From a virus: a DNA stretch of 42,797 nucleotides. The stretch spans positions 1-42,797 of IMG/VR virus record IMGVR_UViG_3300049893_003255. One strand, written 5' to 3'. Below are positions 15,201-36,808 of the stretch, one piece after another. How positions within the stretch are numbered: position 1 is the first letter of the stretch; each line of letters begins with the position of its first letter. The notes beneath the pieces were generated by a model. That model ran no database searches and was not told the DNA's origin. It saw nothing but the letters and a program-made list of their open reading frames with translations. A program made the position numbers and the translations under genes.

Positions 15201-18200
15201 GCGCACTGCAGGCGTTTTTAACAGGACCTACAAATAGCGCAATTACAAAAATGGTGTCTAGCATCACCAAAGTCGATCCAGTTATCAGAGAGCTTGATTT
15301 TAATGAGTGGACAGCAGATCGAGATAATCTCTACCTCGCACCGCCATTATCTGGTGGAACTGTGGAATATCGGCCAGCCGGACGTAATATAGGCGCACAC
15401 ATAGCTGATGGAGACCTGCTAGAGTATCATGCCGAGGCATACATCTCTCATAGAGAGGGTACATTTATCGCAACTATCGCTCCAGACTGGAGGGGAATAG
15501 ATAACGATGCATCACTGACATTCAATATCACAGAAAATGGAGAGCCTATTAGCGATGGTTATGATGGTTATGATGGCTATACTTGGTTCTATGATTACGG
15601 TTTAAATGATGGGTACACTCTATCTCTTGGAGATATTTTTATAGGGGAGACGGCCTTTAATCCAACAGAGATGCCATTTACAATATCAAGGACAGATCTT
15701 TATCCAAATAGCCCTATAGGACGACCGTATAACATCGGCACAGATAAAGGATACTTTATATGGTATGACGATATAGAGAATAGATGGAAGGTACGATGGC
15801 AGGCATGGTCCAGCGACAACGTAGACTTCACTACAGAGATTAATACTACTGGTCAATTCTATAATATTACTGATGGATATGACAGCAACTTATTTATTAA
15901 TGAGGTGTCCGATTCATTCTATTCTACTGAAAATTACATTAAATTCTCTACTGTAATAGATGGTTATGACGGCTATGACGGCTATCTTTTGACGGACGGC
16001 ATAGATTTTTCATCAGATAATATCCATTATGTATTTGATACTGGTCCCAGTGAAATACACAACAGAATTTCTCTTTTTAAAGACGGATCCGGGTATCTTG
16101 TTGGTAGAGTATTTGATAAAAATGGAAGAATGCGCCCAGCTAGGCCCAGGGCATATGCAATTTCTGCAAATATTCAAGATTGGCTAGCCGGACAAGATCA
16201 CCAAGTGGCATTATCATGGAGATATAATTCAGCAGACAGCATAGATGAAATGCATCTGTTTGTTGACGGTAAAGAAGTTGCTAATAACTGGAAATTTGGC
16301 GGAAAACCAATGCCAGTATTAGGAACAGACTTATATCGTACAAACGCTACAGAAGAAATTCTTAGCTCGGCAACCCAAAATACAATAGGCGGTAGCGACG
16401 GCATTACTAGTGCCAGCTCAAACGTCTTTACATCTAGCTCGGCAGCATTTTTAACAAATGGCATTAACATCGGTGATCAATTAGTAATACTTGACCCTAC
16501 CAGTGACGGTGCGGCTAGTCCTCATACGATTACGGGAATATCAAGCGAAACGCAGATTGCGTTATCTGCGCCACTCACATTGTCCCTGACTAATGTAAAT
16601 TGGACTGTAAATCAACTGGAGCTAACTACCAATACAGATATTGATCTAGAGCCATTTGCAGTTTATACCCAATCAGGAACAGATGATCCGGTAGAGCTGC
16701 GCGGACTTAATGCCACGGAACCGCAATACTCTATTTCTAGAGTCGCAGGGACAAATGTAGTGACTATAAATTCAGGAGTGTCAATAGGCGATCGAGTTTA
16801 CATTAATACACTCGGACTTACGCGTGGCAGAATCAGAGATAAAATATATAAGTATACAACAGATAATCGACTAAAAACGAACTTCATACCACCTCAGTCA
16901 TTATCAAATATAGATATTTACAAATATATATTTGATAGAATATCGATAGAAGATGGTTCGGACGGATACCTAACAGACGGATACTTTACTCAAGTCGGGA
17001 CGACGATTACAGGTGTATTTACCTCACTTCCACAGCCATCAAATACTACTAACGGTAAAAAGTTAAGATTAACGTTACATGGTACAGATAATATCGATTT
17101 CGGGGCAACAAACGAGGCTATAATATCTGGAACAGCATATGGAATCGGATCATTTTCAGAAACGGTGACATTTACTGGATACGGTAATTTTATAACAACG
17201 AATTATTTCATGTCAATAAGCGATATAGAGTTTACGTTTAATAACTTTGATGGATATGAGTCATTTGGAGCTATTGAAATAATTGAAGATGTATCCTTAA
17301 CTAAATCGGAAAATAATGGCGATTATGCACAAATACTAAGCTACTATAATGGCAATTTCCGTCTACTCATATTTGGTAGCGGCGGCGTACCATTCAATCT
17401 AGAGCCGACATTTTATTTAATAGAGTACCCTACGCCACTAACAATAGAGCTTGATACCAAAGGCCAGCTTTTGCTCGGAACTGATTTAAATGGTAATAAT
17501 GCATTAAATGGCACATTTGATGAAATTCATATTTTAAATGAAATGCTAATGGATATTCGTGCAGGTGAAGAGCCGCCAGCAGAAGAGAAGTCAATAACAC
17601 GCTACTATCTAGAACCAACGCCAGCAATCTCAACTCCTCAGACGATGTTATTACTACATTTCGACGATAACCAACTTAATTCAGCAGATACATACAAAAC
17701 ATATAATAGAGATTATCTGACTAATAGTCGAAGTGTCAATGCGTTATTTGGAGATTGTGTTGTACTGACCGGTGAAAAGCCCGTAGCCTTCACAAATGAT
17801 GATGGCATTGTCCGACAAGATTCCGGCACTATAGAGTTTTGGGTAAGTCCAACTATAGACATTTATGACGATATGGAAAGTGTCAGATACTATGTCGACA
17901 TTACTTCAATGACATCCATCCAACTAACATCTTTAACTAAAAATACATTAAAGCTAGCTAATAGAGCAAGGTCTATAAATAGTATCAGACTTGTAACAGA
18001 CACGGATAGCTCTGGCACGGATTATGCGCAAGGCAGCAAGCTCGGTATAGACGGCAAGACCATAACGCTCAGCACGGCACTTCCAACGCAGAATACGCTC
18101 GTTGCCGTATCCTACACTCCTATAGATTCTGAGGGAGATCGTATATCTATATATAAGGACGGATATGGATATCTTAATTTTGAAATGAGGTCTTCTATAT

Positions 18201-18844: not shown

Positions 18845-21613
18845 ATGACTATTGAACTATTGAAGAGGAATAATTTCTTTGATTTCATGCAAGTTAGTAC
18901 GGATGATTTGCGTGCAGAACAAGAATTTCATCTAGACAACACCGCATCCCTCGCTAATACTGTGGCAGGAAGTGGCATAATATTAGATTTTCCCACTGAG
19001 CCTATTATCTTTGATAGCGACTCACTGGATTCATTTCAACAAGGGCTGGTTGCATTAAATACTTTCGACGGCCAAGGGCTACTAAGTGAGCCGTATCTAT
19101 GTACTGACACCGTAGGGGGAAATCAACTTGCGGTGTCATTGTCAGATGCTAGAGTAGAGGGCGTTCTTAAGACATCAGTATTGATATTGGGTAAAACATT
19201 TGATGATAGCCTGATATATGAAATGATAGAGCTTAATGATAATACCTCAAAAGTAACACGCAATCATTTCATTGAAGTAGTTAATATTCTAACGCAAAAT
19301 TTACGTGGAAATGGCAACACATCTGTAGATGGATATGGATGTTTTAATGTTGGAGGGCGACTTGTTTTAACTGAGGCATCTTCATTTAGATTAGATCGTG
19401 GTTGCATTGCCGCAGAGCAAATTGCTGAACCAGACCTAAGATTAACATATTTCAAGACCTCAGAAACGGCAAATAGCTTACATGAAGAGCTGATATCAGC
19501 ACTGGGGCCATCAAATGATATAGATGACCTAAACGTCAATACTACCACTGCTACGACAAGAGAATTTACACAGGGGGCAGACACTGCCTTTATGTTAGCG
19601 CAGAAATTTAAAATGCGTGGCAATAATATTCAAAAGGTCTCATTAGCACTAGGATTATCATCAGGATCTTCATGGAGCGGTTCATTAGAAATAGGCATCA
19701 GGCCGTTGCTGGATACTGCTTCGGTATGTACTGATTATTTGCCAGATACCGAAATAGCATTTGATCCAGATGTTAATACTCTAGAAACAATAATCTTGAC
19801 AGAAGCGGATCTACTAAATCAAGGCGTTGTGCTTAGCTCTGATTATCAAATAGTGGATGTCATATTTTCAGGAACTAAATTAGGAAATCCTATTTTAAGT
19901 GGACTCGTTGACGGTCAATACTATGCAATCACACTTAGGCGACTAGGGTCAACTGCTACAGGTACCATTGTTACTCCAGAAGCGCGCAACTCAGATGCAG
20001 ATTTGCGACTAAGCGTATTTGACACCGGAGTGTGGACTGATGTATCTGATAAGTCATTGTGGTTTCAAGTGTGGACTGCCGGCGCATTTGCTGCCAGCGG
20101 AGCGGCATATGATACTGGAAGACTGATTGCTGAACCAAAAACAGAATTAAATGACAACGCTGTGACGGTGCAGCGATTTGCTGATAATATACCATTGGTA
20201 AATACATCTGAGGATGCAGAGAATTATATAATTCTTCAGAGCGCATTAGAATACTCTGATATCATAGCGCATCCTAGAACTGGAGACAGGCAGGCCACAA
20301 GGCAGTCCGATGTAGCACTTATTTCCGCATTAGAACAAGATAATGTTAGTGAATTATTTGACTCTGGACTAAAACCGTTGATTCTTGGGCGCATGATCGA
20401 TAAAAACCCGAAGAATAATCCGCAAATAACAGGCACATTAGACTATCCGGCACTAGCACAAGGCAATATAATAGATATCATAAATCCCGGTTCAGATCTA
20501 CTAGTGCAAAATGTAATTGGATCAACAATTATACCAAATACTTTGCAGCCAACTAAAAAGTATAGGATTATTGGACAAGATATTATTACTGATATTTATG
20601 GAGATCTTGATGGTGATGGTATCATCAGTATAGATGATGCTGCTAGGCTGATAGAACTTGACGGATATGCTCCAAATCTCAATCAAGGTACAGTATCCCC
20701 CACCATTCAACTTCAGGCAGTATTAGCTGGGTCAGTTAGCATAGCAGAGCTATTACGCGCAGATCTATCAAATGATGGATATGTTACATCAGCTGCAGAC
20801 GGCTATGAGATTACCGAATACTTAAATAACGGCACTGGGTTCACAGCGGGCTCATCATTTACACGTGTACGACTGACAGTAGAACCATTATTCAATCAGT
20901 TCTCTAAATTAACAGTTGACGCAGAATCAACATTAACAATACATGCAGAAGACTCTTCTCTAGTCAACAACACATCATTCTCATCATTAACTTTTCAGAT
21001 TGATTTTATACCCACATGGGACTGTGATAGTATTGAGGTAACCGATTTACGCAGATATACAACTACAACATTTATTGACTTTGATATTACAGATCTAGAA
21101 GCATCGCCAGAGAATGGAGGTCAGAATAGTACGTTTATCCCAGGCGACCTATATTTGACAGGTGGAGTGAAGAATCTTGATGGATCAGTACACTCTCTTG
21201 ATTTTGAAAAGAATATTATAGAGTTGGAACTTCCAACTGGTGATACGGTGGGAGAAATTAACATATTCTCATCATTAGTACTTGGCAAAATGAGGTTTTC
21301 TGATGGCACATATGTGTCTTCATCGGCCATAGCAGATAATCAAGTAAGATTCGAAGTGGCTATCAGTTCAATATCTAAAGACGTGGATGGATACGATTAT
21401 AATGATGGCTATTTTGTAGCAGATGAAATTGTTGGCACCTATATAGATCATAATACGGGATTACTACGTCTCCATTGTAAGAATATTAAAGAAAATAGTA
21501 CGCTCCCTCAGCTAAGAACGCGACTGTTAATTACAGTTAATCTAAAGAAGGCCGGATTTAAAGATGCTGTAACTAAAATATTATCATCTCAAATAGCAGA
21601 TCTTCTTGTGTAG
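18845..21613 (+). CDS. Tail-fibre-region protein with dockerin-like Ca2+ loop pair
   Basis: 922 residues, ATG preceded by AGAGGG. I do not recognise the overall family. Residues about 586-660 carry two calcium-loop motifs with dockerin spacing: D587-L-D589-G-D591-G592-I-I-S-I-D-D598, and D640-L-S642-N-D644-G-Y-V-T, with A651-D652 where an acidic residue would close the second loop. About 52 residues separate the loops, longer than in a classic dockerin. The flanking regions are beta-rich: a lectin-like segment about 240-290 (FKMRGNNIQKVSLAL) and C-terminal strands 660-922. Six DGY tripeptides link it in style to the preceding gene. It is last in the baseplate operon, so a receptor-binding or fibre role is likely but inferred. 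Confidence 0.62.
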   Translation: MTIELLKRNNFFDFMQVSTDDLRAEQEFHLDNTASLANTVAGSGIILDFPTEPIIFDSDSLDSFQQGLVALNTFDGQGLLSEPYLCTDTVGGNQLAVSLSDARVEGVLKTSVLILGKTFDDSLIYEMIELNDNTSKVTRNHFIEVVNILTQNLRGNGNTSVDGYGCFNVGGRLVLTEASSFRLDRGCIAAEQIAEPDLRLTYFKTSETANSLHEELISALGPSNDIDDLNVNTTTATTREFTQGADTAFMLAQKFKMRGNNIQKVSLALGLSSGSSWSGSLEIGIRPLLDTASVCTDYLPDTEIAFDPDVNTLETIILTEADLLNQGVVLSSDYQIVDVIFSGTKLGNPILSGLVDGQYYAITLRRLGSTATGTIVTPEARNSDADLRLSVFDTGVWTDVSDKSLWFQVWTAGAFAASGAAYDTGRLIAEPKTELNDNAVTVQRFADNIPLVNTSEDAENYIILQSALEYSDIIAHPRTGDRQATRQSDVALISALEQDNVSELFDSGLKPLILGRMIDKNPKNNPQITGTLDYPALAQGNIIDIINPGSDLLVQNVIGSTIIPNTLQPTKKYRIIGQDIITDIYGDLDGDGIISIDDAARLIELDGYAPNLNQGTVSPTIQLQAVLAGSVSIAELLRADLSNDGYVTSAADGYEITEYLNNGTGFTAGSSFTRVRLTVEPLFNQFSKLTVDAESTLTIHAEDSSLVNNTSFSSLTFQIDFIPTWDCDSIEVTDLRRYTTTTFIDFDITDLEASPENGGQNSTFIPGDLYLTGGVKNLDGSVHSLDFEKNIIELELPTGDTVGEINIFSSLVLGKMRFSDGTYVSSSAIADNQVRFEVAISSISKDVDGYDYNDGYFVADEIVGTYIDHNTGLLRLHCKNIKENSTLPQLRTRLLITVNLKKAGFKDAVTKILSSQIADLLV

Positions 21614-21644: not shown

Positions 21645-21701
21645 ATGCTGATATTAAAAACTATAGGTCCAAAGCCTAATGGTAAACTTATATCAGTATA
21701 A
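21645..21701 (+). CDS. Possible 18-residue leader peptide
   Basis: ATG to TAA frame reading MLILKTIGPKPNGKLISV, in the 116-base gap between the dockerin-like protein gene and the glycosyltransferase gene. Only a weak AGAG precedes it at about 10 bases. It overlaps the most upstream in-frame ATG (21679) of the glycosyltransferase frame, which is one reason to prefer the later start there. It could be a leader peptide or chance. Nothing else is visible in this gap. Confidence 0.15.
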   Translation: MLILKTIGPKPNGKLISV

Positions 21702-21729
21702 GAAATTTTATTTAATGGTAGGCAACAAG

Positions 21730-22890
21730 ATGAATATACGAAGCTATACCTGGGGAGCAGCTGACTTATCATGGTCAGTAGTAATGGAAGAGCTCCTGCA
21801 TACTGCAGAACTACATGGCCATAATGTAGATTTTATATCTACCAACGGCACAAAGGGAATGATGTATTGGGATGAGAGAAGAAATTCCTCAGCCATGCTT
21901 TCTGAGCGGAATATGCGCAGAAATGGTATACCATACGATTTGGACATCGTATTTACTGTGCCACAAAACTTTCCACAAAGATTCCTTCACTCATCTAAAG
22001 TAAAGATGGCGCTATATGACTACGAGTCTAGTCATATGCCAGCACTATGGAAGCAATTTTATCATTTAGTTGATTTTGTACTACCATCAAGCAAGTATGT
22101 AGCAGATATGTTTCGTCGCAATGGTTGTCCATCAGAGAAGATACAGGTAGTACATCACGGAATAGATTTAAATGCATTTAATCCTACAGTATCTCCTGTG
22201 ACGCTATCTACACAAAAAAAATTTAAATTTCTCTGCGTAGCAGCTCCGCATTACAGGAAGCAATTGCCAGCATTACTAGATATATATTGTCAGACATTCA
22301 CTGCATCAGATGATGTATCACTAGTATTAAAGACTAAGATATTTAGTAACGGAGAGCAGATTAAGCCATTTGAGGTTGATCTGAGACCGGTTATAAATAA
22401 GTTAACGAAGCGGTATGGGGCGAAGATGCCAGATATTTGCATTGTTAATCAAAAGATTGAGAATATGGCCGCATTATACACCGCCTGCAACTCATTTGCA
22501 CTAATGACAGCATCAGAGGGATGGGGAATGCCATTTCTTGAGGCGATAGCATGCGGACTACCAGTAATAGCTCCACGATTTGGAGGACAATTAGATTTTT
22601 TAAATGACTCAAATGCATTACTTACTAAATGCGGAGTAAGAAAAGCATTGCCGCAAGAGCAGTATTGGGGAGTGACTCCCGGAGCAACAACGGGAAACCC
22701 AGACCCAGTCGACTTCGGTGCGACTATGCGACATGTATACGATAATTATGATCAGGTCTGCTCTAAACTAAAACCAGAAATGAGTAACAGCATTATAAAT
22801 TATACTTGGGATCTTGCTTTTGATAAGATCTACAATTTAGCCAAATCAACTGGGAGGCTTATTGAAGAGGAAGGAAAAGAAAGAGGGTAA
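21730..22890 (+). CDS. GT4-family glycosyltransferase (GT-B fold)
   Basis: 386 residues from the ATG at 21730; in-frame ATGs at 21679 and 21715 also exist but have no ribosome site, while AGG at 21720-21722 sits about seven bases before 21730 and MNIRSYTW is a natural first strand. The C-terminal Rossmann domain shows the GT4 E-x7-E motif, E263-GWGMPFL-E271, followed by AIACGLPVIAPRFGG. The domain start is marked by FKFLCVAAPHYRKQ, and VHHGIDLNAFNP is the typical interdomain phrase. It should transfer a sugar from a nucleotide-sugar donor with retention; the acceptor is unknown. It opens the sugar cassette directly behind the tail-fibre genes, so fibres, host glycans or modified bases are all candidate acceptors. 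Confidence 0.85.
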   Translation: MNIRSYTWGAADLSWSVVMEELLHTAELHGHNVDFISTNGTKGMMYWDERRNSSAMLSERNMRRNGIPYDLDIVFTVPQNFPQRFLHSSKVKMALYDYESSHMPALWKQFYHLVDFVLPSSKYVADMFRRNGCPSEKIQVVHHGIDLNAFNPTVSPVTLSTQKKFKFLCVAAPHYRKQLPALLDIYCQTFTASDDVSLVLKTKIFSNGEQIKPFEVDLRPVINKLTKRYGAKMPDICIVNQKIENMAALYTACNSFALMTASEGWGMPFLEAIACGLPVIAPRFGGQLDFLNDSNALLTKCGVRKALPQEQYWGVTPGATTGNPDPVDFGATMRHVYDNYDQVCSKLKPEMSNSIINYTWDLAFDKIYNLAKSTGRLIEEEGKERG

Positions 22891-23008
22891 TGGCATATAT
22901 AAACTTGTTAGATGGACATACTTAGGTACTAAAATAGTCTGCAGTGATATACAGGAGTATCCTGACACCTCAAAAAAAGAGGGGCGCGACAGTGTTAAAG
23001 GTAAATAA
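22862..23008 (+). CDS. Possible 48-residue small protein overlapping both neighbours
   Basis: Frame starting at TTG 22862 with GGGAGG at 22852-22857 upstream (four-base spacer), ending in TAA at 23006-23008. It overlaps the glycosyltransferase end by 29 bases, fills an otherwise empty ~100-base gap and overlaps the start of the next gene. The product would begin very basic (KRKEKKEG), then IYKLVRWTYLGTKIVC and a charged tail. The gap is unusually long for this compact operon, which argues for something there. No family is recognised; chance is a real possibility. Confidence 0.3.
   Translation: MKRKEKKEGNGIYKLVRWTYLGTKIVCSDIQEYPDTSKKEGRDSVKGK
22979..22984 (+). promoter_or_regulatory. Shine-Dalgarno site deciding the GTG start at 22992
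   Basis: GAGGGG, seven bases before GTG 22992. An alternative upstream GTG at 22944 in the same frame has no comparable site, so the shorter protein is preferred. Confidence 0.65.
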
Positions 23009-23462
23009 GACAGAAAAGGTGCATATCTCTAACATAGTCGCAACACTTAATAGAAGTGCGCATGATTACGTTTTATATGAAAAGCATAAACGTACTATAG
23101 ATGAGATAGAAGCTGAGTTATCAAGCTGGCTAATAGTTACTGAAGATAGTTCATCACCGGTAGCCTTTATTAAGATAGGTAATATAGACTGGATAAGTCG
23201 TACGCTGCAATATACATTGGTATATAATTCCAATATAGCACATCGTGAACTCCTTATATGCGCAACAGAATATCTATTTAGTACATATAATTGCGCCAAA
23301 ATGTTTACTGAAATTAGATATGATCGCAGTGAGATAATAAAAGATCATATTTATATAGGCGGTAATATAGAGGTAAGGAAGAGGCAGCACTTATATGTGG
23401 ACGGAAAATACATACATGTGGTAGAGGTAGCCGTATTTCAAAATGAGTTTAAAAATGAATGA
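22992..23462 (+). CDS. GNAT-like protein, degenerate (first of a tandem pair)
   Basis: 156 residues from GTG 22992, chosen for its GAGGGG site. The order of elements follows a GNAT N-acetyltransferase: a strand pair around residues 55-80 (SPVAFIKIGNIDW, TLQYTLVY), a helix (RELLICATEYLFSTY), then NCAKMFTEIRY and a C-terminal strand. The phrase GNIDWISR matches TNIDWSSR in the next gene, so the two look like diverged duplicates. The acetyl-CoA pyrophosphate loop (usually Q/R-x-x-G-x-G/A) is not recognisable, so catalytic activity is doubtful. RimJ/RimL- and PseH-type sugar acetyltransferases are the nearest style. It may act on, or bind, the sugar made by this cassette. Confidence 0.5.
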   Translation: MLKVNKTEKVHISNIVATLNRSAHDYVLYEKHKRTIDEIEAELSSWLIVTEDSSSPVAFIKIGNIDWISRTLQYTLVYNSNIAHRELLICATEYLFSTYNCAKMFTEIRYDRSEIIKDHIYIGGNIEVRKRQHLYVDGKYIHVVEVAVFQNEFKNE

Positions 23463-24012
23463 TCTGCATGTGGAGTTATCGCAAATAGATAGGTCAGATA
23501 TTCATACAATAAAGGGCATAATTGGCTCAGGATTCGTAGATTTATTAAATACAAATACTGAGTTTAATCACATGAACTTTATCGAGTGGTATGGAGATGT
23601 ACTGTCTCGTAATAAACATATTTTTGCAATTAGAGTATCTAAGGCTGATGGTGGCGCAGCTGGGCGCAGCTGGCTTGTAGGAATATGCGGCATCACTAAT
23701 ATTGACTGGTCCAGTCGACATGGGCAAATAATATTTATCATGGTTGACAAGGATGGACATAAGAGTACGCTACAAAATCATCCAGCATCACAACATGCGT
23801 TTAAACAGCTAATACATTATGCATTCAAGGAGCTATGCTTAAATAAAATTTGGATAAGCTCATTGAGTAATAATAATATAGCTGATGTGCTTAATATACA
23901 TGGATTCACTGCAGATGGGATTAGACGAAAGCATGTGTTTATCAAAGGACGATATCGCGATGAGTCAATCTTCTCATTGACTATGAGAGAATTTATTGAG
24001 GGAACAAAGTGA
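23443..24012 (+). CDS. GNAT-family N-acetyltransferase (RimL/PseH style)
   Basis: 189 residues from ATG 23443, overlapping the previous gene by 20 bases; ATG 23455 is an alternative. The sequence follows the GNAT layout: strands WLVGICGITNIDW and HGQIIFIMVDKDG, helix ASQHAFKQLIHYAFKELCLNKIW, then NNNIADVLNIHGFTADGIRRKHVFIKGRYRD, the standard 'N-x-x-x...GF-x-x-x-G-x-x-R...G-x-Y-x-D' ending of RimL/PseH-type enzymes. The pyrophosphate loop normally written R-x-x-G-x-A is replaced by GHKSTLQNHPAS, so the cofactor site is altered. Neighbours are sugar enzymes, so an amino-sugar is the most plausible substrate (inference). Confidence 0.72.
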   Translation: MSLKMNDLHVELSQIDRSDIHTIKGIIGSGFVDLLNTNTEFNHMNFIEWYGDVLSRNKHIFAIRVSKADGGAAGRSWLVGICGITNIDWSSRHGQIIFIMVDKDGHKSTLQNHPASQHAFKQLIHYAFKELCLNKIWISSLSNNNIADVLNIHGFTADGIRRKHVFIKGRYRDESIFSLTMREFIEGTK

Positions 24013-24698
24013 TAGGATTGATAGTTTTAGGTAGCCTTCGTGAATCGACATGGGATTGGAAGCTGCTATATAGAATAGCAGGCAAAACAATATTAGAGCA
24101 CACTATTTCACTGGCTTCAGAAGTAGAAGTAGCACATAAAATCATCGTATGTCTAGACTACAAGGATATGCCGCATATACACGGTACGGCATTTTCAACA
24201 TCATCACTAAATAAATCAATCCTACAAACAGATGAGCGTATAAAGCTACATTTTTCTGATAAAAGTGACTGGATAGGTAAGGTATATGAGGCCTGTATTA
24301 AACATTCATTGACCTCCATATGTATTATTAATGCTGATAGCGTATTAATACCTCCGGGTTTAATAAAAGAATGTATTATGAAACATATGCTTACAGGGCA
24401 GCCAGTAAGAACATCCGGATATCCTGCCGGCATAGAAGCATCCGTGATGCCATTCTATACATTAGCAAACTTATATAGATATCGAGACCACCATAAGCAA
24501 AAAGCAGAGGTATTCAAACAAATACCGTGGACGTCACTTATAAATACTAATGATGGACCATATTATATATATAATGGAATAGAAGATTTGCGATTTGCTA
24601 ATAAATCCAATGCTGCAATGTTAGAGGCATTCCTAACTGACATAGCAGCTGGGGCAGACTTAAGTAATTTACTGCAAGACTGGCATGAACAAGAATAA
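24009..24698 (+). CDS. SpsF/NeuA-like nucleotidyltransferase, modified signature
   Basis: 229 residues from a GTG overlapping the previous TGA (GTGA). The N-terminus aligns by eye with the CTP-transferase fold of SpsF, KdsB, NeuA and PseF enzymes, which make CMP-activated sugars: LIVLGSLRESTWDWKLLYR, then IAGKTILEHTISLA. Here the usual nucleotide-binding phrase R-x-G-S-T-R-L-P-G-K is changed to LRESTWDWK, keeping only the final lysine. INADSVLIPPGLI corresponds to the GDxPLIDPxxI metal/nucleotide region, with the first Asp kept in altered context. The altered signature means the activity could be lost or changed. It lies between the acetyltransferase and a possible MptE/DUF115-like gene. Confidence 0.6.
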   Translation: MIGLIVLGSLRESTWDWKLLYRIAGKTILEHTISLASEVEVAHKIIVCLDYKDMPHIHGTAFSTSSLNKSILQTDERIKLHFSDKSDWIGKVYEACIKHSLTSICIINADSVLIPPGLIKECIMKHMLTGQPVRTSGYPAGIEASVMPFYTLANLYRYRDHHKQKAEVFKQIPWTSLINTNDGPYYIYNGIEDLRFANKSNAAMLEAFLTDIAAGADLSNLLQDWHEQE

Positions 24699-25290
24699 TT
24701 TACATGAAAATCATAGTTCAGCGATAAACGTCTCTGCGCTGTGCGGCTCAATGCTTGGAAAGCGCGTCCTAGTGCTAGATAAGTATATGCCTACCATGCC
24801 ATACTCCACACTTAAGGCTTTTTTTGATGTAATTATCGCTGTAGGGGAGGAGGCAGCAGAATACTGTATCCAACCAGATATATTTATATCAACTAGGCTA
24901 AATCCACATGTTAATGGCATACTAGATTTAACCCCATATAATAAATACAGATACTCCATACTATGCATCACCCACTCAGAAGTAGCTTTTTTACTAAAAA
25001 TGGCTAAGTATCATACATCCCATGTGCTTTTATGGCAGCCAATGGACGTGCCATTATCGGAATTAGCAGCAGTATATAAGACAATACCATATGGGCTAAA
25101 TGCAGAGGATCCAGGAGTGCATTTGGCTATGATAGCTGGGTCTACTAACATCTATTCATCCTCAATATATAAAGATGAGCTAGATACGAGACTTGATAAG
25201 TTAATTAATGCAAAGCGAGGCTATATGCCAGCAAATATCCTACGCCCCACACGACCTCCATTCTTAGAAGAGGCAAAGTTTATAGGATAG
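24685..25290 (+). CDS. Unknown cassette protein, possibly MptE/DUF115-like
   Basis: 201 residues; ATG overlaps the previous gene by 14 bases. Not confidently recognised. Residues about 20-75 follow a pattern seen in DUF115/MptE-like Rossmann domains: LGKRVLVLDKYMP, a helix LKAFFDVIIAVGEEA, then IQPDIFISTRLNP, comparable to 'K-P-x-L-I-V...L-K-x-x-x-x-I-I-A-x-x-x-A...I-x-P-D-x-x-x-x-x-D'. The normal 'G-x-G-P-S' loop is not present. Later segments (YSILCITHSEVAFLL, VHLAMIAGSTNIY) fit an alpha/beta fold. DUF115 proteins include Maf flagellin glycosyltransferases, which would suit this cassette, but that link is speculative. Confidence 0.45.
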   Translation: MNKNNLHENHSSAINVSALCGSMLGKRVLVLDKYMPTMPYSTLKAFFDVIIAVGEEAAEYCIQPDIFISTRLNPHVNGILDLTPYNKYRYSILCITHSEVAFLLKMAKYHTSHVLLWQPMDVPLSELAAVYKTIPYGLNAEDPGVHLAMIAGSTNIYSSSIYKDELDTRLDKLINAKRGYMPANILRPTRPPFLEEAKFIG

Positions 25291-25295
25291 GAGGT
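25289..25295 (+). promoter_or_regulatory. Strong Shine-Dalgarno site before a TTG start
   Basis: AGGAGGT overlapping the previous stop codon and ending three bases before TTG 25299. Its strength supports TTG as the start of the SDR gene, for which no nearby in-frame ATG exists. Confidence 0.6.
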
Positions 25296-25298
25296 AGT

Positions 25299-26165
25299 TT
25301 GTCAAAAATATTAATAATAGGCGGAGCATCAGGACTGGGCGCCAGCTTAGCAGCATCATTATTGCAGAGAACTCAGTATAATATCACTACTATCGATGAT
25401 CTTCGCGTAGAACCTACTCTACAAAATTTACAATTTGCCATGTCCCATAAAAAAGGCGATAGACATAGATTTCACTTAACATCTTTAAGCGATCAGCATA
25501 TAGCTAAAAGATTATTTGAAATTGAGAAACCAGATACGATAATCTTTTGCAAGACCCCAGAGAGCACTGCATATCATCAGTCTTTAGTACAAGCATTGTG
25601 TCACGCCAAGTCACATAAAATTCGCCTACTATACATCGTACCACACTCATGGTCATCCGAGCGAAATGAATCTTATAGCTACGGAGTGGAGATTTGCAGA
25701 TCGGAAAGCAATATAGGCATAAGCAGTATACTGCATACGTGTAGGATTTATGGGCCACGACAAGAGTCGGGAGATCCAATGATTGAAGCCATGGGGCAGA
25801 TTATCGCCGGTAAGTGGCCCAATATGTCACATTTTTCTCATGCACCCGAACATTGGCTTTATATAAAAGATCTATTAACTGCGATAGAATACATACTAGC
25901 CTCGCAAAATATAGAAAATGAATATAAGGTAGTACCCAATAGATCTTCTAGTGAATATGATGTAATCACATATTTACAAAAAATCGGAGATGGAACAAGG
26001 CCTGCTGTAATCAAAGAAGAAATTACAGCATCGACGGACTCCTCCTCCATTTACGCATTAGGCTGGAATCAGAAATATGCCTTGCGAGAGGCGCTAGAAC
26101 ACACTCTGTCCTGGTACGCAGTAAATGCATGGGCACTAAATGGAAGCAGCTATGAGTGCAAATAA
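25299..26165 (+). CDS. Extended SDR / NAD-dependent epimerase-dehydratase-like, catalytic Lys absent
   Basis: 288 residues from TTG 25299. The N-terminus is a Rossmann NAD(P) loop, ILIIGGASGLGASLA (G8-G9-x-x-G12-x-G14), followed by strand-end Asp33-Asp34. The C-terminal half has the RmlB-type phrase CRIYGPRQ, then WLYIKDLLTAIEYIL in place of the usual Y/F-V-x-D-x-x-x-A. The Y-x-x-x-K catalytic pair is not evident: the expected region reads YSYGVEICRSE (residues 126-136) with no lysine. It may therefore bind a nucleotide-sugar without ordinary 4,6-dehydratase or epimerase chemistry, or use another residue. It is the last gene of the sugar cassette and overlaps the tubulin gene. Confidence 0.72.
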   Translation: MSKILIIGGASGLGASLAASLLQRTQYNITTIDDLRVEPTLQNLQFAMSHKKGDRHRFHLTSLSDQHIAKRLFEIEKPDTIIFCKTPESTAYHQSLVQALCHAKSHKIRLLYIVPHSWSSERNESYSYGVEICRSESNIGISSILHTCRIYGPRQESGDPMIEAMGQIIAGKWPNMSHFSHAPEHWLYIKDLLTAIEYILASQNIENEYKVVPNRSSSEYDVITYLQKIGDGTRPAVIKEEITASTDSSSIYALGWNQKYALREALEHTLSWYAVNAWALNGSSYECK

Positions 26166-27603
26166 ATCGACGAGAGTTGTAATAATTGATGAGGATACAC
26201 AGACTACTTATGTTAAGTCTGAAGCTCAAATTATTAAAGAGAATGAACAGTTTAAAATACTCTTGAGTCACGGGAGACAGGAAATGACAGACCCAACAAA
26301 AGAAGCAATAAGAGACCAAGATTTTGAAAAATTCTTAGAGCATAAAAAGGCTCAAAAAGAAGCAGCGCAGGCAGAGGCTCCGGCACAAAAGTCGACAGAG
26401 AGACGTGTCTCACTTCGCTTTGGTGTTATAGGATCTGGTCAGGCCGGAGGTAAGCTAGCAAAGGTATTCTACGATCTTGGTTACGATGTGTGTGCTGTTA
26501 ATACGGCCAAGCAAGATTTGGAATTGCTTGAAATACCAGAAGGACATAAATTCTTTATGAATTATTCGCTTGGTGGTACAGGCAAGGATCTAGAGGTGGC
26601 TAGAGCAGCTATAGAAGATAATTTTGAGCATGTTAAAACATTTATCATTGAACATATTGCCGACGCGGATGTTCTGATACTTTGCGCATCAGCGGGTGGC
26701 GGTACAGGGGCTGGCAGCGCCAGCACCATAGCAAGTTTGCTAGCCACTTTCGGCAAGCCCGTAATAGTAATGCTTATCTTGCCGGGATCAACAGATGATA
26801 GCCAGTCTAAGTTTAATTCAGTCCAAGTCTTATCAGAAATGGCTGACATGGCAGCCAAAGAAGTTATTAACTCATTAGTATTAGTTGACAATGCGAAAAT
26901 AGAATTAGCATATTCAAATTTGGGACCGGCTCAGTTCTGGAAAGTAGCCAATAATGCCATAGTGGAACCACTACATATGTTCAATGCCCTTGCGGCACAA
27001 CCATCCAATCTAGAATCGTTAGATCCTATGGATTTAGCAAAATCTCTCTTAGAGGCCGGCAATTGTGTGTTATTCGGCTCAAATAGGATTTCAAGAGATG
27101 AATATGAGAGCAATGATCTAGCACTAGTTTCTGCTATTTCAGATGATCTAGAGCGAGGCCTACTGGCAAGCGGTTTCGATCTAAAGGAAGCACAGAGCGT
27201 AGGTATATTGGTAACAGCCAGTAAGGAAGTATTAGATCGCATACCGACACAGTCGATATCATTCATCTTCAAGTATATCGCAGATGAATACAGCTCAGCA
27301 CGTGTATTTAAAGGGATATACCAAGTACCATCAGAAGGTGATGATATACAAATATACTTTATCTTTAGCGGCATGGGACTGCCACGTGAACGTGTGGAGT
27401 CACTAAAGAAGGAGGCTGATCGGCACATGTCGGCTCTGGTAGACAAGAAGAAGATATCCGCAGATAAGATGAATGTTGGTCTTAACAAGGATAGAACTAC
27501 TACTGCAGCGGACAAAATGCTTGATAAGCTTCGTAAAAATAAGAGCGCTGTCGGCAAGCTCATCTCTGCTTCACGCAAAGATATTCTGGATAGGCGACGC
27601 TAA
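26152..27603 (+). CDS. Phage tubulin/FtsZ-like GTPase
   Basis: 483 residues from ATG 26152 (GGAAG five bases upstream); ATG 26140 is an alternative. The GTPase core has GVIGSGQAGGK (T1 loop), the tubulin signature G182-GGTGAG-S, and an acidic T7-like segment LD291PMD294L for GTP hydrolysis by the next subunit. It is longer than PhuZ (about 315) or TubZ: about 90 residues precede the core, mostly polar with an Ala/Glu/Lys helix, and about 50 very basic residues end it (DKLRKNKSAVGKL, ILDRRR). The basic tail could bind DNA or another polyanion. Phage tubulins position replication compartments (PhuZ) or segregate plasmid prophages (TubZ); which applies here cannot be told from sequence. Confidence 0.85.
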   Translation: MSANKSTRVVIIDEDTQTTYVKSEAQIIKENEQFKILLSHGRQEMTDPTKEAIRDQDFEKFLEHKKAQKEAAQAEAPAQKSTERRVSLRFGVIGSGQAGGKLAKVFYDLGYDVCAVNTAKQDLELLEIPEGHKFFMNYSLGGTGKDLEVARAAIEDNFEHVKTFIIEHIADADVLILCASAGGGTGAGSASTIASLLATFGKPVIVMLILPGSTDDSQSKFNSVQVLSEMADMAAKEVINSLVLVDNAKIELAYSNLGPAQFWKVANNAIVEPLHMFNALAAQPSNLESLDPMDLAKSLLEAGNCVLFGSNRISRDEYESNDLALVSAISDDLERGLLASGFDLKEAQSVGILVTASKEVLDRIPTQSISFIFKYIADEYSSARVFKGIYQVPSEGDDIQIYFIFSGMGLPRERVESLKKEADRHMSALVDKKKISADKMNVGLNKDRTTTAADKMLDKLRKNKSAVGKLISASRKDILDRRR

Positions 27604-31210: not shown

Positions 31211-32667
31211 AGAATTTAGATCAAACAATTCTAGGCTATGCTGTACGTAGTCGAAAAAGTATGATGGAGCTATCACGCGCTGTCAAAGCAGGATACTTTA
31301 CAGTAGAATTTCGAGATTTCTTCACAGTACTACATTCGGCGTTTCTTGATCCATCTATCAAAGAAGTCTTGAGTCCAAAAGCAATGATGCAGTATTGTGA
31401 AGCCGGTGGGTTTGGCGCACTTAATGGAAAGCTAAGTGCCCAATATCAAGAAATACTCGGTACCGAGATTGGACCTGAGGGTGATTTCAAGCTATATCTT
31501 AAGTTATTAAAGGATAGATATAATAAGTCACTAGTATACGAACTATCGACCAATCTAGGAGCAGGGCTAACTTCAAATGTTGATATAAAGGAGTTAAATA
31601 AACGCCTGACAGATACTCACAGAGAGATTAATCTTATTACTCAAGGAAAATCTCTTGATGAGGGCACTCTGGGCGAGGATATTGTCAATATTTACAAAGA
31701 GTACGGGCATATTGCCTCAAATCCTCAAGATTTCAAGGGAGTATTAACTGGATTCGATAGTTTGGATAATCTCACAAATGGATTCTTCGGCGGAGAACTG
31801 ATTATCGTTGCTGGGTTTGAAGGTTCAGGCAAGTCGTTAGTATCAATGAACTGGGCTATCAATGCATGGATGGGGAGCAATACTATTGATACTGTACCTG
31901 ATAATTTTACAGACGATGGAAGCAATGTACTGTATATTTCATTAGAAATGCCTCGCTCAAATAAAGGTCAGCCATCAAGCAGTGCATACCTGAATAAAAG
32001 AATGGTATCCTGCATTTCAAGAATACCATTTAGTGATCTAAGACGAGGTCAACTGCAGCCAGATGATTTAAATGCATTCAGAAAGTCATGTAAGTTTATT
32101 AAAGAGTACGATAAACATAAGAAACTATTCGTAGCAGATATGCCTAGAGGTGTAGGCGTTGATGATGTTGAGGCTAAAATCTTAGAAATAAAAGATTCGA
32201 TGGAGATAGGGCTTGTAGTGGTAGACTATATAGGGCTAATGAAGGGAGCAGAGGACGAAGCTGACTGGCAGGCACAGGGAGAAATTGCTGCAGGACTACA
32301 TGAAGTTGCTCGTATATATGATATACCAATAGTAACTCCATGTCAGGTAAATAGACCAAATAATGCAAGTCATTCATTAAATAATCAAAAATACAATACA
32401 ACTCGATTGGCACGCGCATCAGGTATATCGCAGAATGCTAATATGGTGTTCGTTATAGAAAGCAGAGATAATGAACATCAGTATCAGGACATGCCATTTC
32501 AAATAGTAAAAATGCGAGATGCTGAGAAAGGCGAATTGCAGTTTGTAAAAGATTTTGCTAAAATGAGAGTATACGATCCATCTGCTACGGCCGCACTAGT
32601 GGATCAGTTAGATGATTTTATAGGTGTAAATAATGAGTTCGCAGAGAAAGACGACAATCAAGACTGA
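31207..32667 (+). CDS. dnaB: DnaB-like replicative helicase
   Basis: 486 residues. The RecA-like motor has Walker A G203FEGSGK209S and Walker B LVVVD340Y, followed by IPIVTPCQVNRP (the DnaB Q-x-N-R region) and ASGISQNANMVFVIE, equivalent to the DnaB 'S-G-x-I-E-Q-D-A-D' segment. The N-terminal ~150 residues are helical, as in DnaB's interaction domain. It would be the ring helicase that unwinds DNA at the phage fork, loaded by the preceding DnaC-like protein. The first DGPA-repeat gene starts 35 bases before its stop. Confidence 0.88.
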   Translation: MKNLDQTILGYAVRSRKSMMELSRAVKAGYFTVEFRDFFTVLHSAFLDPSIKEVLSPKAMMQYCEAGGFGALNGKLSAQYQEILGTEIGPEGDFKLYLKLLKDRYNKSLVYELSTNLGAGLTSNVDIKELNKRLTDTHREINLITQGKSLDEGTLGEDIVNIYKEYGHIASNPQDFKGVLTGFDSLDNLTNGFFGGELIIVAGFEGSGKSLVSMNWAINAWMGSNTIDTVPDNFTDDGSNVLYISLEMPRSNKGQPSSSAYLNKRMVSCISRIPFSDLRRGQLQPDDLNAFRKSCKFIKEYDKHKKLFVADMPRGVGVDDVEAKILEIKDSMEIGLVVVDYIGLMKGAEDEADWQAQGEIAAGLHEVARIYDIPIVTPCQVNRPNNASHSLNNQKYNTTRLARASGISQNANMVFVIESRDNEHQYQDMPFQIVKMRDAEKGELQFVKDFAKMRVYDPSATAALVDQLDDFIGVNNEFAEKDDNQD

Positions 32668-33907
32668 ATTCGGACATACGCACATTATTGATAATGATAA
32701 ATATGCATTACAGACTAGCCTCGATAGGTTTGGTAATACGGTAGATTTATTTCAAGGTAGACTTCTGCATTGTACTGATGGGCCAGCGGTAATTAGATCT
32801 GACGGTAAGGAGTTTTATTACCTATACGGCATGCGTTTGAATAAAGAGCAGTTTGAGCAAGATAAAGCTCTTGCTGTTCATTACTATCAGATGCCTGGAC
32901 GTGGATTGCAGCGCGTATGGAAGAGCTCAGTGACAGGAAAGATGCATCGTTTAAATGGCCCAGCAATAGAAACTTCGGACCAGTCATATACAGCATGGAT
33001 GTATAATGGCGTACAGCACAGAATTGGAGGCCCAGCAATCATTAGGGCACGTGGACATACTACTGAGGAATTGTACTATAGTTACGGCAAGCTACATAAT
33101 AGCAGTGGCCCAGCGAAAATAAATCATTCCACCGGTCGCTCAAGTTATTATTTGCATGGTAAGAGAGTTAGTAAAGAAAACTTTGAGAAAAGAAGACCGC
33201 ATCTTGCCAATCAATTACGACAAAGCGTTTCACGTAAAGAAGCACTATATAAGATCTATATGGATGCAGCTAAGAAATTTCACACCGGAACATCACTTGA
33301 AGAATACGATCCGGGCTCATATGATTTTATAGAGGATCTAATTTCTACAGCGGCAAACTTACAAGAGTCGGCGCAATTAAGGGCCGCAGCTCTCGGAGTA
33401 TATCACGTGGCTACCGGTAATTTAATGATCGAGAGTGAATTCCGAGATGTGTTCCAAGATATTGATGACGGACTTCCTCCTATATACGTAATGGACTCGG
33501 GCGAGAAGCTAGAGCCATATACCTTATACCTAACAACCTTCTTGCTAAGAGAATTTGAGCCAGCAGCAGTGTTTACAGCGATTGACCCAGATAAAATGAC
33601 TATGGATATAATAAACATAGCAATCTCAGATTCGGCATCTAATGACAGACCGTGCGGATACAGCGATTTTCATTCAAAAGTAGATCCTGGTGGTGATAAC
33701 ATGAGAAGCGCACACGAATCTTCGCTTGCAGATACTCATTCAATGAATGCGCAGAGTACAGAGGCATCAGATGACTCTATATCTTGGACTGCACCGCTAG
33801 TATTAGCTATGGGAGCAACGATACTGAATAGCTTATACTCAGCTAAGCCTAAGAAGCTTAATGATATTGATAAACACAAAAACAATCAGGTCATGCAAAC
33901 CAAATAA
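32633..33907 (+). CDS. DGPA (MORN-like) repeat protein 1 with C-terminal hydrophobic segment
   Basis: 424 residues; ATG 32633 lies inside the helicase gene with AGGTG upstream. Residues about 35-185 contain four degenerate repeats of the form 'G-x-x-H-R-x-(D/N/G)-GPA-x-I', each followed by an aromatic strand (YYLYGMR, TAWMYNGV, LYYSYGKLH, SYYLHGKR). They resemble MORN_2/YwqK-type repeats. Residues about 200-330 form a separate helical domain with no recognised family. Near the C-terminus a short hydrophobic segment (APLVLAMGATILNSLYS) is followed by a basic polar tail. The same end organisation occurs in the two other complete repeat proteins here. The function is unknown. Confidence 0.7.
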   Translation: MSSQRKTTIKTEFGHTHIIDNDKYALQTSLDRFGNTVDLFQGRLLHCTDGPAVIRSDGKEFYYLYGMRLNKEQFEQDKALAVHYYQMPGRGLQRVWKSSVTGKMHRLNGPAIETSDQSYTAWMYNGVQHRIGGPAIIRARGHTTEELYYSYGKLHNSSGPAKINHSTGRSSYYLHGKRVSKENFEKRRPHLANQLRQSVSRKEALYKIYMDAAKKFHTGTSLEEYDPGSYDFIEDLISTAANLQESAQLRAAALGVYHVATGNLMIESEFRDVFQDIDDGLPPIYVMDSGEKLEPYTLYLTTFLLREFEPAAVFTAIDPDKMTMDIINIAISDSASNDRPCGYSDFHSKVDPGGDNMRSAHESSLADTHSMNAQSTEASDDSISWTAPLVLAMGATILNSLYSAKPKKLNDIDKHKNNQVMQTK

Positions 33908-33935
33908 CAGATTTGAGTGTATACTAGGAACTAAT

Positions 33936-35960
33936 ATGAGCAGCGATAATTATATAAATCAAGCATATGCTTATGAGGAATATGTAAAAAGGCTATCGGA
34001 TATACTACATACTTATGGATATGGCGGGCAATCTTTAGATGAATCGGATCTAACTAGAAGTGCTATAAAGCACAATCATATTATTAATAATGACGACATT
34101 GAGATCAGATCCACATTCGATTCCACCGAATATCTGATCAAATCTACATCACTAAGACATAGGAGCGATGGCCCTGCCTGGAAAACGTCAGAGGTAGAGG
34201 GATGGTATCAACACGGGGTGCTTCACAGAGATGACGGGCCAGCATTAATACAACCAGGATGCATCCAATATTATCAATACGGAAGATTGCATAGAGATGA
34301 CGGCCCTGCGATAGAAATAAGAGATAGTAACGGACAACATCTATTTTCATGCTGGTATAAGAATGGAATACAGTATAGAGAGAATGGTCCATGCATGGTG
34401 TTGGGTGATGATGATGCTGAGGTATACGTAACAGATGGAAAGATTAATCGCATAGGAGGCCCCGCCATTTTTACAAAAGATGGCGCCCAAATCTGGGTTA
34501 ATAATGGCATCATTCATAATGAAGGAAATCCAGCAATTGTACATGGTAATCTGAAGCTGTATTATCACAGAGGAATGCGCATGACTGAAGGTCATAACAT
34601 ATCTTCAAATATACCAAAAGGCATATATAGTATGGCGATAACACTAAAGGCAAAAATAGTACATTGTGATGATAAATCATGTTGTTTAGAGTATCCAGAT
34701 GGCACATTATATTGGTATATGACACAGAAGATTATAAAGCATCGCGAGGACGGACCGGCGATTATATATCCAAATGGAACACAGATGTATTATATAGATG
34801 GAAAGCTGCATAGAGATGATGGTCCGGCAGTCATTAATGAGCGAGGAGATGAATACTACTATACTAAAGGCAAGTTACATTCCCCGTCAGCAACTACGCC
34901 AGCTATAAAGTTAGCCAGTGGCACAGAGATATTTTACACAAATGGAATGCTACATAGAGAAGGTGACTTACCTGCAGCTATAATAAAAGAATCTAACAGT
35001 GATACGCTAGTTTGGGCAAAGAATGGACTGATACATAGAGATAATTATAAGCTACCAGCAATTAAATGGGGATCCGATCCGCAGTTTACGTCAGAAGTTA
35101 TTGAGCTTTTAAGGGGATTAAGGATGCCAGGAGATTCAAACTGGCATAAAGTACTAACATATAATACAAAACCTGTAAATGAAGACAGTTTTTATCGTGG
35201 AGGTAGGCCAGTAGCAATCCAGGATACAGATAAAGAAAATGTTATTATAGAAATAGAGAACTTTGATGACAAACAAATTAGTATTATTGGAGCAGCTGAG
35301 CTAAAAGGGAGACTGAGCGAGCTAGGCTTAATCAATGCAACAATTCATAACGGATCAATAGTTATCAGATCAAATAGTGAAATAAAGTTAGAAAATTGCA
35401 CTATAGTCGACACTCATATTATAATCGAAGCACCGGGTAAGATCAGTATAGTTGGCAATAGATTAGATAACTCTAAAATTACAACATCTAGCAAATGCTT
35501 TTTAGCAGACAATGAATTGCTAAATAAATCTTATATTATACTATCTAATAATAATCACCATACTACCGGCGAACGGATCAAAGATGAGTCGAAGTTGCAA
35601 GCTGCATTTAAGCGCTATAACAATAACTTCTCCAGTGCATTAAGTGAAGTAAGTGCAGAAGGTGAAGAGATAGAATCTACTGAGGAGAAATATTCAGTTA
35701 GTGATAGCGATATACTAGATATACCTAATATAGTAAAGTATGAGGTAAGTCTTGCTTCTACAGCGCTCGAGCAGGTCAGACACTTCAATACCATCATAAA
35801 AGATATTAGTGATAGTACTGACAAGGATAATTCGCTATTAGCGACAGCTGCATTATGTATGGCAGCGGTAACTGCTATGGCATTTAATTCAAATAAAAAC
35901 AATAATGTAGATAGCGACAGCACCGAGATTGATGACGAGGTACAAAGTGCCGTTATTTGA
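33936..35960 (+). CDS. DGPA (MORN-like) repeat protein 2, large
   Basis: 674 residues from ATG 33936, chosen because AGGA lies seven bases upstream; an in-frame ATG at 33861 would overlap the previous gene. About eleven repeats of the 'LHRDDGPA' type are readable up to residue ~400, spaced about 20-24 residues, the later ones degenerate (LHSPSATTPAI, IHRDNYKLPAI). Residues about 430-545 switch to short alternating strands (NVIIEIENFDDKQISIIG, GSIVIRSNSEIKLENC) like a parallel beta-helix. The C-terminus has a small-residue hydrophobic segment (LLATAALCMAAVTAMAF), then an Asn/Asp-rich tail. A scaffold or binding surface is plausible; no catalytic motif is seen. Confidence 0.7.
   Translation: MSSDNYINQAYAYEEYVKRLSDILHTYGYGGQSLDESDLTRSAIKHNHIINNDDIEIRSTFDSTEYLIKSTSLRHRSDGPAWKTSEVEGWYQHGVLHRDDGPALIQPGCIQYYQYGRLHRDDGPAIEIRDSNGQHLFSCWYKNGIQYRENGPCMVLGDDDAEVYVTDGKINRIGGPAIFTKDGAQIWVNNGIIHNEGNPAIVHGNLKLYYHRGMRMTEGHNISSNIPKGIYSMAITLKAKIVHCDDKSCCLEYPDGTLYWYMTQKIIKHREDGPAIIYPNGTQMYYIDGKLHRDDGPAVINERGDEYYYTKGKLHSPSATTPAIKLASGTEIFYTNGMLHREGDLPAAIIKESNSDTLVWAKNGLIHRDNYKLPAIKWGSDPQFTSEVIELLRGLRMPGDSNWHKVLTYNTKPVNEDSFYRGGRPVAIQDTDKENVIIEIENFDDKQISIIGAAELKGRLSELGLINATIHNGSIVIRSNSEIKLENCTIVDTHIIIEAPGKISIVGNRLDNSKITTSSKCFLADNELLNKSYIILSNNNHHTTGERIKDESKLQAAFKRYNNNFSSALSEVSAEGEEIESTEEKYSVSDSDILDIPNIVKYEVSLASTALEQVRHFNTIIKDISDSTDKDNSLLATAALCMAAVTAMAFNSNKNNNVDSDSTEIDDEVQSAVI
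35937..35941 (+). promoter_or_regulatory. Shine-Dalgarno site deciding the GTG start at 35947
   Basis: GAGGT before GTG 35947. The resulting protein begins MPLFDF, the standard beginning of FmdB-type proteins, so the upstream TTG (35929) and ATG (35932) are rejected. Confidence 0.7.
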
Positions 35961-36252
35961 CTTTTTATGTAAAGATTGTAAATTTGCTAAAGAACATTTC
36001 GTATACGCTGGTGGTATAAAACCTAAGTGCCCCGAGTGCGGCTCTGATAGCTATTATAAACTTTTTAGTAAATTTAGAGTAGATGTTAAGTATGCTAATA
36101 CAACTGAATATATGCAAAGAAAGATGATGCCAGAGATACAAGAATTGTATGCCCAGATTGGCAAAGAGGCAATAAATGAAGACTCGAAAACTCTGGATAA
36201 TATCTTTGGGGAGCAAAAGGTAAGCGAAACGTATGGCGAACCAGACGACTGA
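35947..36252 (+). CDS. FmdB-like zinc-ribbon protein
   Basis: 101 residues from GTG 35947. It begins MPLFDFLCKDC, then KPKCPECGSDSYYKLFS, which is the FmdB/'putative regulatory' zinc-ribbon layout: C-x2-C ... C-x2-C-G-S within the first ~45 residues. The C-terminal half is helical and acidic. Such ribbons are common in phages; functions are poorly known, with DNA or protein binding usually assumed. It is sandwiched between two DGPA-repeat genes and overlaps both (14 bases upstream, 20 bases downstream), so it is co-translated with them. Confidence 0.75.
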   Translation: MPLFDFLCKDCKFAKEHFVYAGGIKPKCPECGSDSYYKLFSKFRVDVKYANTTEYMQRKMMPEIQELYAQIGKEAINEDSKTLDNIFGEQKVSETYGEPDD

Positions 36253-36808
36253 CGAACGCTCCATCTCACACATTCGCCTCAGTCGCCCTACTGGGCGACC
36301 ATTTTATATATACTTCGGATGCATAAATACCGCTGGATCTCAAATTTATTATGACTCAGCGGGACTATTATATTTTAACTACCCAAATATAGGCTCATCA
36401 CTTATGGTTCACAGTACTGGCGCCCCAGCGATTCGTTTCTCCGACGGGTCTCTAGTATGGGTTGAAAATGGTCGATACCACAGAGAAGACGGACCGGCTA
36501 TAATCGATACTGCGCTAGGCATTAATCAATACTGGCTAAACGGTGAGCATATAGAGACTGAGCAGTGGATCTCGGACGATGCGCAGCATACTGATTACGC
36601 AGAGCATGCAGATGACAGCAATATCATAAAAGTAAATTGTGACAGCAATATAAATGCACATGATAAAAGTAATCAGTCAAATGATGATATACTAACCATA
36701 GCTATTGCTGCATTTGGCACTATCAGCCTACTCAATGCATTCGGACGCTCTTCAAGTCAACGAAGAGACCGATTAACTAAATCAAAATCTTTAATATATA
36801 AAGGATAG
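36233..36808 (+). CDS. DGPA (MORN-like) repeat protein 3, short
   Basis: 191 residues, ATG overlapping the FmdB-like gene by 20 bases. It has two clear repeats (HSTGAPAIRFSDGSLVWVENG; YHREDGPAII followed by YWLNGEHI) and an upstream degenerate one (GSQIYYDSAGLLYF). After an acidic, His/Asp/Asn-rich linker comes the hydrophobic segment LTIAIAAFGTISLLNAF and a basic Ser/Arg/Lys tail (SSSQRRDRLTKSKS). The arrangement repeats-linker-hydrophobic segment-polar tail is shared with repeat proteins 1 and 2. A terminator-like hairpin lies in its early codons. Confidence 0.65.
   Translation: MANQTTDERSISHIRLSRPTGRPFYIYFGCINTAGSQIYYDSAGLLYFNYPNIGSSLMVHSTGAPAIRFSDGSLVWVENGRYHREDGPAIIDTALGINQYWLNGEHIETEQWISDDAQHTDYAEHADDSNIIKVNCDSNINAHDKSNQSNDDILTIAIAAFGTISLLNAFGRSSSQRRDRLTKSKSLIYKG
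36282..36299 (+). terminator. Terminator-like hairpin inside the start of repeat gene 3
   Basis: Perfect seven-bp stem GTCGCCC/GGGCGAC with a four-base loop (TACT), followed by CATTTTATATA. It is 30 bases after the FmdB-like stop and 49 bases after the start of repeat gene 3. It might attenuate transcription or translation of that gene. The U-run is short, so this is a moderate call. Confidence 0.45.

Follow-up and report, generated by a model that had tools for sequence, protein, structure and literature searches.

Phages are known to carry restricted clusters of sugar-related genes, jumbo cyanophages included (PMC7824862), and PMC12619734 cites Freeman et al. 2023 for glycosylation of mycobacteriophage virions. 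Here we describe a block of six co-directional open reading frames (ORFs) in a 42,797-base virus record of a tailed phage, IMGVR_UViG_3300049893_003255 of IMG/VR (hereafter the window). The block encodes a family 4 glycosyltransferase (GT4), two GNAT-like proteins (GNAT 1 and GNAT 2), a nucleotidyltransferase-like protein, a protein of 201 amino acids (aa) and a short-chain dehydrogenase/reductase (SDR). Annotation of phage sugar clusters usually goes by family names, from which a pathway is then read. The family names in this block would suggest such a pathway as well, but it finds no support in the motifs, and steps of it are missing. The six genes form a conserved unit, and among the cassette families compared the canonical signature was intact in the GT4 only, in both phages that carry it. 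We tentatively read the block, with a probability of roughly 0.4, as a small phage-encoded glycosylation cassette in which the GT4 would use a host nucleoside diphosphate (NDP) sugar, the partner proteins would be non-canonical and the phage fibres would be the likely acceptor.

Like the clusters of Flavobacterium phage immuto (MW353176) and of jumbo cyanophages, the block belongs to a tailed phage and combines a GT4 gene with SDR-type and further sugar genes, all transcribed in the same direction. Immuto encodes several glycosyltransferases and two proteins annotated as WecE-type aminotransferases, whereas the cassette holds one GT4, no aminotransferase match and motif-altered partners. With mycobacteriophage virion glycosylation, as cited in PMC12619734, the cassette shares phage glycosyltransferase(s) and structural proteins as acceptors, the latter being only proposed here. 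It differs in the additional GNAT, nucleotidyltransferase-like and SDR proteins, and in being known from genes alone. Phage sugar cassettes are of a known kind, but one intact glycosyltransferase with motif-altered partners, as present in these two phages, was not found in the literature and records searched.

A six-gene unit in two phages

All six ORFs were confirmed on the same strand as one tight block directly behind the large fibre-like and baseplate genes, between the gene of a 922-aa fibre-like protein and a TubZ/FtsZ-like gene (Table 1). A first-pass annotation of this DNA had described them as packed with overlapping ends. This holds from GNAT 1 through the 201-aa gene, where successive ORFs overlap by 20, 4 and 14 nt, but not for the 8-nt gap ahead of the SDR or the approximately 100 nt between GT4 and GNAT 1. 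The 3' end of the SDR gene shares 26 nt with the TubZ gene. Comparison with the sister phage described below, together with the sequence itself, placed the likely start of the GT4 gene at about 21724-21730 and that of GNAT 1 at about 22992, within ORFs opening at 21679 and 22944, respectively.

The sister phage, the 97,323-base IMG/VR contig IMGVR_UViG_3300043177_000229, encoded all six genes in identical order and spacing, with an additional 161-aa gene ahead of the GT4. Protein identities between the two phages were 79% for GT4, 58% for GNAT 1, 70% for GNAT 2, 66% for the nucleotidyltransferase-like protein, 60% for the 201-aa protein and 58% for the SDR; the flanking TubZ and 922-aa fibre-like proteins were 92% and 85% identical. 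Because synonymous substitution rates (dS) were saturated, the ratio dN/dS was not usable, and selection was judged from the proportions of nonsynonymous (pN) and synonymous (pS) differences. Across all six genes pN was 0.13-0.28 and pS 0.72-0.89. With pN far below pS, all six genes are under strong purifying selection, which together with the shared order and spacing at 58-79% identity shows that the unit is real and maintained.

Phage records, searched at the DNA and the protein level, returned no close relative of the cassette and plasmid records no relative of the SDR. Scans of viral contigs yielded the sister phage and, beyond it, a single distant GT4, and scans of genome contigs gave no relative. 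None of the six proteins matched anti-phage defence models. The GC content at third codon positions resembled the value for the remaining window, and overall GC in GNAT 1, GNAT 2 and the nucleotidyltransferase gene was only slightly lower; composition thus gave no sign of recent import. Promoter- and terminator-like matches at the cassette showed no excess over shuffled sequences.

Family assignments and active-site motifs

The GT-B C-terminal domain of the GT4 matched PF00534 at 2e-9 (37.6 bits against a cut-off of 26.4; 40.1 bits in the sister phage), PF13692 and PF13439 were also above cut-off, and phrog_2170 was matched at 2.8e-27, which bears out the first-pass assignment. The catalytic EX7E motif, here EGWGMPFLE, was intact in both phages, and the comparison with the sister GT4 included fully conserved blocks. 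For the motifs of the other families E. coli SpeG, RffG and KdsB served as controls, and all three carry the expected signatures.

The SDR assignment was likewise upheld, with PF01370 above cut-off (4.6e-7), PDB structures of RmlB at 6.6e-8 and TIGR01181 at 8e-15, yet far below the equivalog cut-off of that model. The protein aligns with RmlB/RffG in the N-terminal dinucleotide-binding region, where it retains the glycines GxxxGxG, and in the C-terminal region. It is 67 aa shorter than RffG, and in both phages neither the catalytic YxxxK nor TDE at the expected place was found.

Of the two GNAT-like proteins that had been proposed, GNAT 2 was confirmed (PF13420 at 4e-7, above cut-off), with a diamine acetyltransferase (PDB, 6.5e-9) and spermidine acetyltransferases as nearest solved relatives. 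GNAT 1 was supported but fell just short of the cut-off (PF13420 at 1e-4; PDB spermidine acetyltransferases at 1.6e-6). For both proteins, then, the best relatives of solved structure include SpeG-type polyamine N-acetyltransferases, but unlike these neither protein has the acetyl-CoA motif [RQ]xxGx[GA] in either phage. In GNAT 1 the acetyl-CoA loop shows a four-residue gap and is the least conserved stretch of the protein (10% identity), while stretches of its C-terminal half are conserved up to 85%. In GNAT 2 the loop site reads VDKDGHKSTLQ[ND]HPASQHAF and is the most conserved stretch (95%). An origin of GNAT 1 and GNAT 2 as recent duplicates was considered and was not demonstrable (hhalign probability 2.6%).

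The product of the fourth gene is probably a nucleotidyltransferase-fold protein. Related models matched at E-values of 0.001-0.1 and agreed on approximately 40 N-terminal residues, but all were below their curated cut-offs, including PF02348 (E 0.06; 10-13.5 bits against 22.6), and a PDB search returned no solved relative. The CMP-sugar-synthetase signature RxxSxRxPxK was missing in both phages; the loop site reads GSLR[ED]xxW[DE]WKLL and is among the more conserved stretches of the protein. Two retained aspartates may correspond to the metal ligands of KdsB, judging from the alignment. Of the SpsF/PseF-like nucleotidyltransferase that had been proposed, the fold is therefore suggested, but neither a score above cut-off nor the signature was found. 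For the 201-aa protein, which had been called possibly DUF115/Maf-like, that proposal found no support: PF01973 (Maf/DUF115, MptE-like), run at a threshold as loose as E 10, was without a match in both phage records, and searches of Pfam and PDB gave none either. Its conserved tail reads RGYxPANILRPTRPxFLEEAxF. A weak match to rV5-type 'transposase-like' proteins was discarded, since the sister protein lacks it and the rV5 neighbourhood is unrelated. AlphaFold models of the nucleotidyltransferase-like and 201-aa proteins were poor (pLDDT 39 and 34, respectively) and unusable for structure searches.

Possible functions of the cassette

We infer that the GT4 would transfer sugar from an NDP-sugar supplied by the host, and that the acceptor would most likely be structural proteins of the phage itself, encoded by the fibre genes next to the cassette. 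Two things favour the fibres as acceptor, their adjacent position and the known glycosylation of phage virions. The GNAT-, nucleotidyltransferase- and RmlB-derived proteins would descend from nucleotide-sugar-type enzymes, although canonical motifs for cofactor binding or catalysis are lost in them. Instead of running a complete pathway, these proteins would probably help the GT4, either as binders or presenters of the sugar nucleotide or the acceptor or through altered chemistry, and the six genes would presumably be expressed as one unit. In support of a glycosylation cassette, other phages have relatives of this GT4 in the neighbourhood of sugar or structural genes, as in the immuto cluster, or in a phage contig where a GT4-GT2 gene lies among head genes. 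Cysteine content (1.1-2.1% in cassette proteins; mostly 0-0.7% in the upstream structural proteins, with one, 5289-7079, at 2%) fits intracellular rather than virion proteins. The first-pass annotation had suggested fibre glycosylation or host sugar remodelling from the location next to the fibres; a sugar-related block beside the fibres is indeed present, and if the GT4 is to be given a single use, glycosylation of the fibres is the most plausible one.

Several points weigh against this proposal. The link to the fibres consists solely of co-location, and their role as acceptor is putative. Both phage records may be fragments, so that the missing enzymes could be encoded outside them. The verdict of motif loss comes from alignments rather than structures with one control per family, which is a thin base, and homologues at such distance can stay active with unusual residues. 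A more specific and rather doubtful idea is that in a conserved phage operon several sugar-enzyme families jointly lost their canonical active or cofactor sites. Their members would now accompany a single working GT4, either without catalysis or with a new one, and the whole would serve to attach or recognise glycans. If the cassette works, it would show that a reduced kit dependent on the host, with divergent descendants of enzymes as helpers, is enough for a phage to glycosylate.

Synthesis of a pseudaminic or legionaminic acid-type nonulosonic acid, or flagellin-style glycosylation, was the framing of the first-pass annotation, based on enzyme types resembling PseB, PseH, PseF and Maf out of the set PseB, PseC, PseH, PseG, PseI, PseF and Maf. 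What the cassette shares with this set are weak fold matches of PseH-like and CTP-transferase-like type: the PseH model matched the two GNAT-like proteins at 3e-3 and 6e-5, and the nucleotidyltransferase-like protein matched KdsB and CTP-transferases weakly. The PseH scores (17.6-23.1 bits) are far below the cut-off of 93.1 and not clearly above those of spermidine acetyltransferases, which matched about as well, and the acetyl-CoA loop is missing. The SDR is RmlB-like and without the catalytic lysine. In both phage records no match was found at E 10 to PF02719 (PseB-type dehydratase; control positive in 14/14 genomes), PF01041 (PseC aminotransferase; 14/14) or TIGR03590 (PseG hydrolase; 10/14), or at E 0.001 to PF03102 (PseI/NeuB synthase; 9/14). 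The lack of PseC, PseG and PseI equivalents, which the first-pass annotation had itself pointed out, was thus borne out over the whole window record and the sister. Without sugar aminotransferase, NeuB, PseG and PseB matches a full pathway is unlikely, barring unseen parts, and since the GT4 alone keeps its textbook active-site motif the block does not appear to be a pseudaminic acid pathway. With the Maf family also unmatched and the catalytic motifs missing, the nonulosonic acid reading is largely refuted on the two phage records, and we regard it as highly improbable. Only slightly more credible, and still very unlikely, is that the GT4 acts on hydroxymethylated phage DNA. Phage glycosyltransferases acting on DNA are known (cited in PMC12619734), but the thymidylate-synthase-family protein of the sister phage is a true ThyA (NCBIfam 4e-119, above cut-off) and so does not point to hydroxymethylated bases that could accept a sugar, and no hydroxymethylase or base-modification gene was found among the genes scanned, which were part of those of either record.

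The cassette might instead alter an envelope glycan of the infected host, which could for instance keep out superinfecting phages. Loci for envelope glycans typically contain GT4, acetyltransferase-type and SDR-type genes, and such a role has been proposed for phage sugar clusters in jumbo cyanophages and for smaller sets elsewhere (Iyer et al. 2021, PMC7824862). The six genes, however, gave no family match to a flippase, polymerase or membrane-bound glycosyltransferase, no membrane segment was found in the last 90 residues of any of the six proteins (the C-terminal ends being the part scanned), and the genes lie directly behind tail structural genes; we consider host-surface remodelling rather unlikely. 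Unlikely, too, is a wholly non-catalytic reuse, with the five partners as pseudoenzymes for binding or assembly and the GT4 as the sole enzyme or a binder as well. Such reuse would agree with the loss of canonical motifs, which in either phage affects four proteins from three enzyme families despite purifying selection, and with the low conservation of the former acetyl-CoA loop in GNAT 1 compared with its C-terminal stretches. The replaced loop of GNAT 2 and the altered loop of the nucleotidyltransferase-like protein are, however, fairly conserved, which also fits new catalytic chemistry, and the cysteine content of the cassette, above that of most structural proteins, speaks weakly against a role in the virion.

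Features and neighbouring genes

Table 1. Genes of the cassette and its immediate neighbours in the window, with the evidence for each assignment.
Feature	Coordinates	Strand	Evidence or context
922-aa fibre-like structural protein (candidate glycan acceptor)	18845..21613	+	behind baseplate J-like gene and 2196-aa gene
GT4 glycosyltransferase	21724..22890	+	PF00534, PF13692, PF13439 above cut-off; EX7E
GNAT-like protein 1 (fold match of SpeG/PseH type) with deletion of the acetyl-CoA loop	22992..23462	+	PF13420, PDB SpeG-type
GNAT-like protein 2, acetyl-CoA loop replaced	23443..24012	+	PF13420, PDB diamine acetyltransferase
Protein of probable nucleotidyltransferase fold (IspD/KdsB/MobA-like) with an altered signature loop	24009..24698	+	sub-cut-off models, KdsB alignment
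201-aa protein, no family match	24685..25290	+	Pfam and PDB searches
SDR, RmlB-like, 288 aa	25299..26165	+	PF01370, TIGR01181, PDB RmlB
TubZ/FtsZ-like tubulin (neighbour)	26140..27603	+	PF00091 1.4e-12, PF22453 8e-12

Apart from the cassette, the window of this tailed phage encoded a baseplate J-like protein, large fibre-like proteins, the TubZ-like tubulin, two helicases (UvsW-like and DnaB-type), a DnaC-type loader and a ribonucleotide reductase. The 922-aa fibre-like protein contained dockerin/EF-hand-like repeats (DLDGDGIIS...ADLSNDGYVT) at residues ~585-649, below the Pfam cut-off (PF00404, E 0.82). The TubZ/FtsZ-like protein is probably not part of the sugar function; it has a TubZ-type C-terminal domain (PF22453), and its nearest named phage relative is that of Bacillus phage G (25%).

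The large subunit of the ribonucleotide reductase (37300-41208, 1302 aa) carried an HNH-endonuclease-like insertion at residues ~415-715, which is probably an intein. Several otherwise different proteins shared a C-terminal architecture in which a polar or acidic stretch is followed by one hydrophobic segment of ~17 residues and then by a short tail that is for the most part basic, and look as if they were membrane-anchored at the C-terminus. These were encoded at 32633-33907, 33861-35960 and 36233-36808 in the window and at 65900-66385, 77313-78542, 78515-79327, 79308-81563 and 81836-82438 in the sister contig. Some proteins with this hydrophobic segment (33861-35960 in the window; 16519-17748 and 18514-20769 in L001) also contained HR.DGPA...W...G..HR repeats that appeared YwqK/MORN-like by eye.

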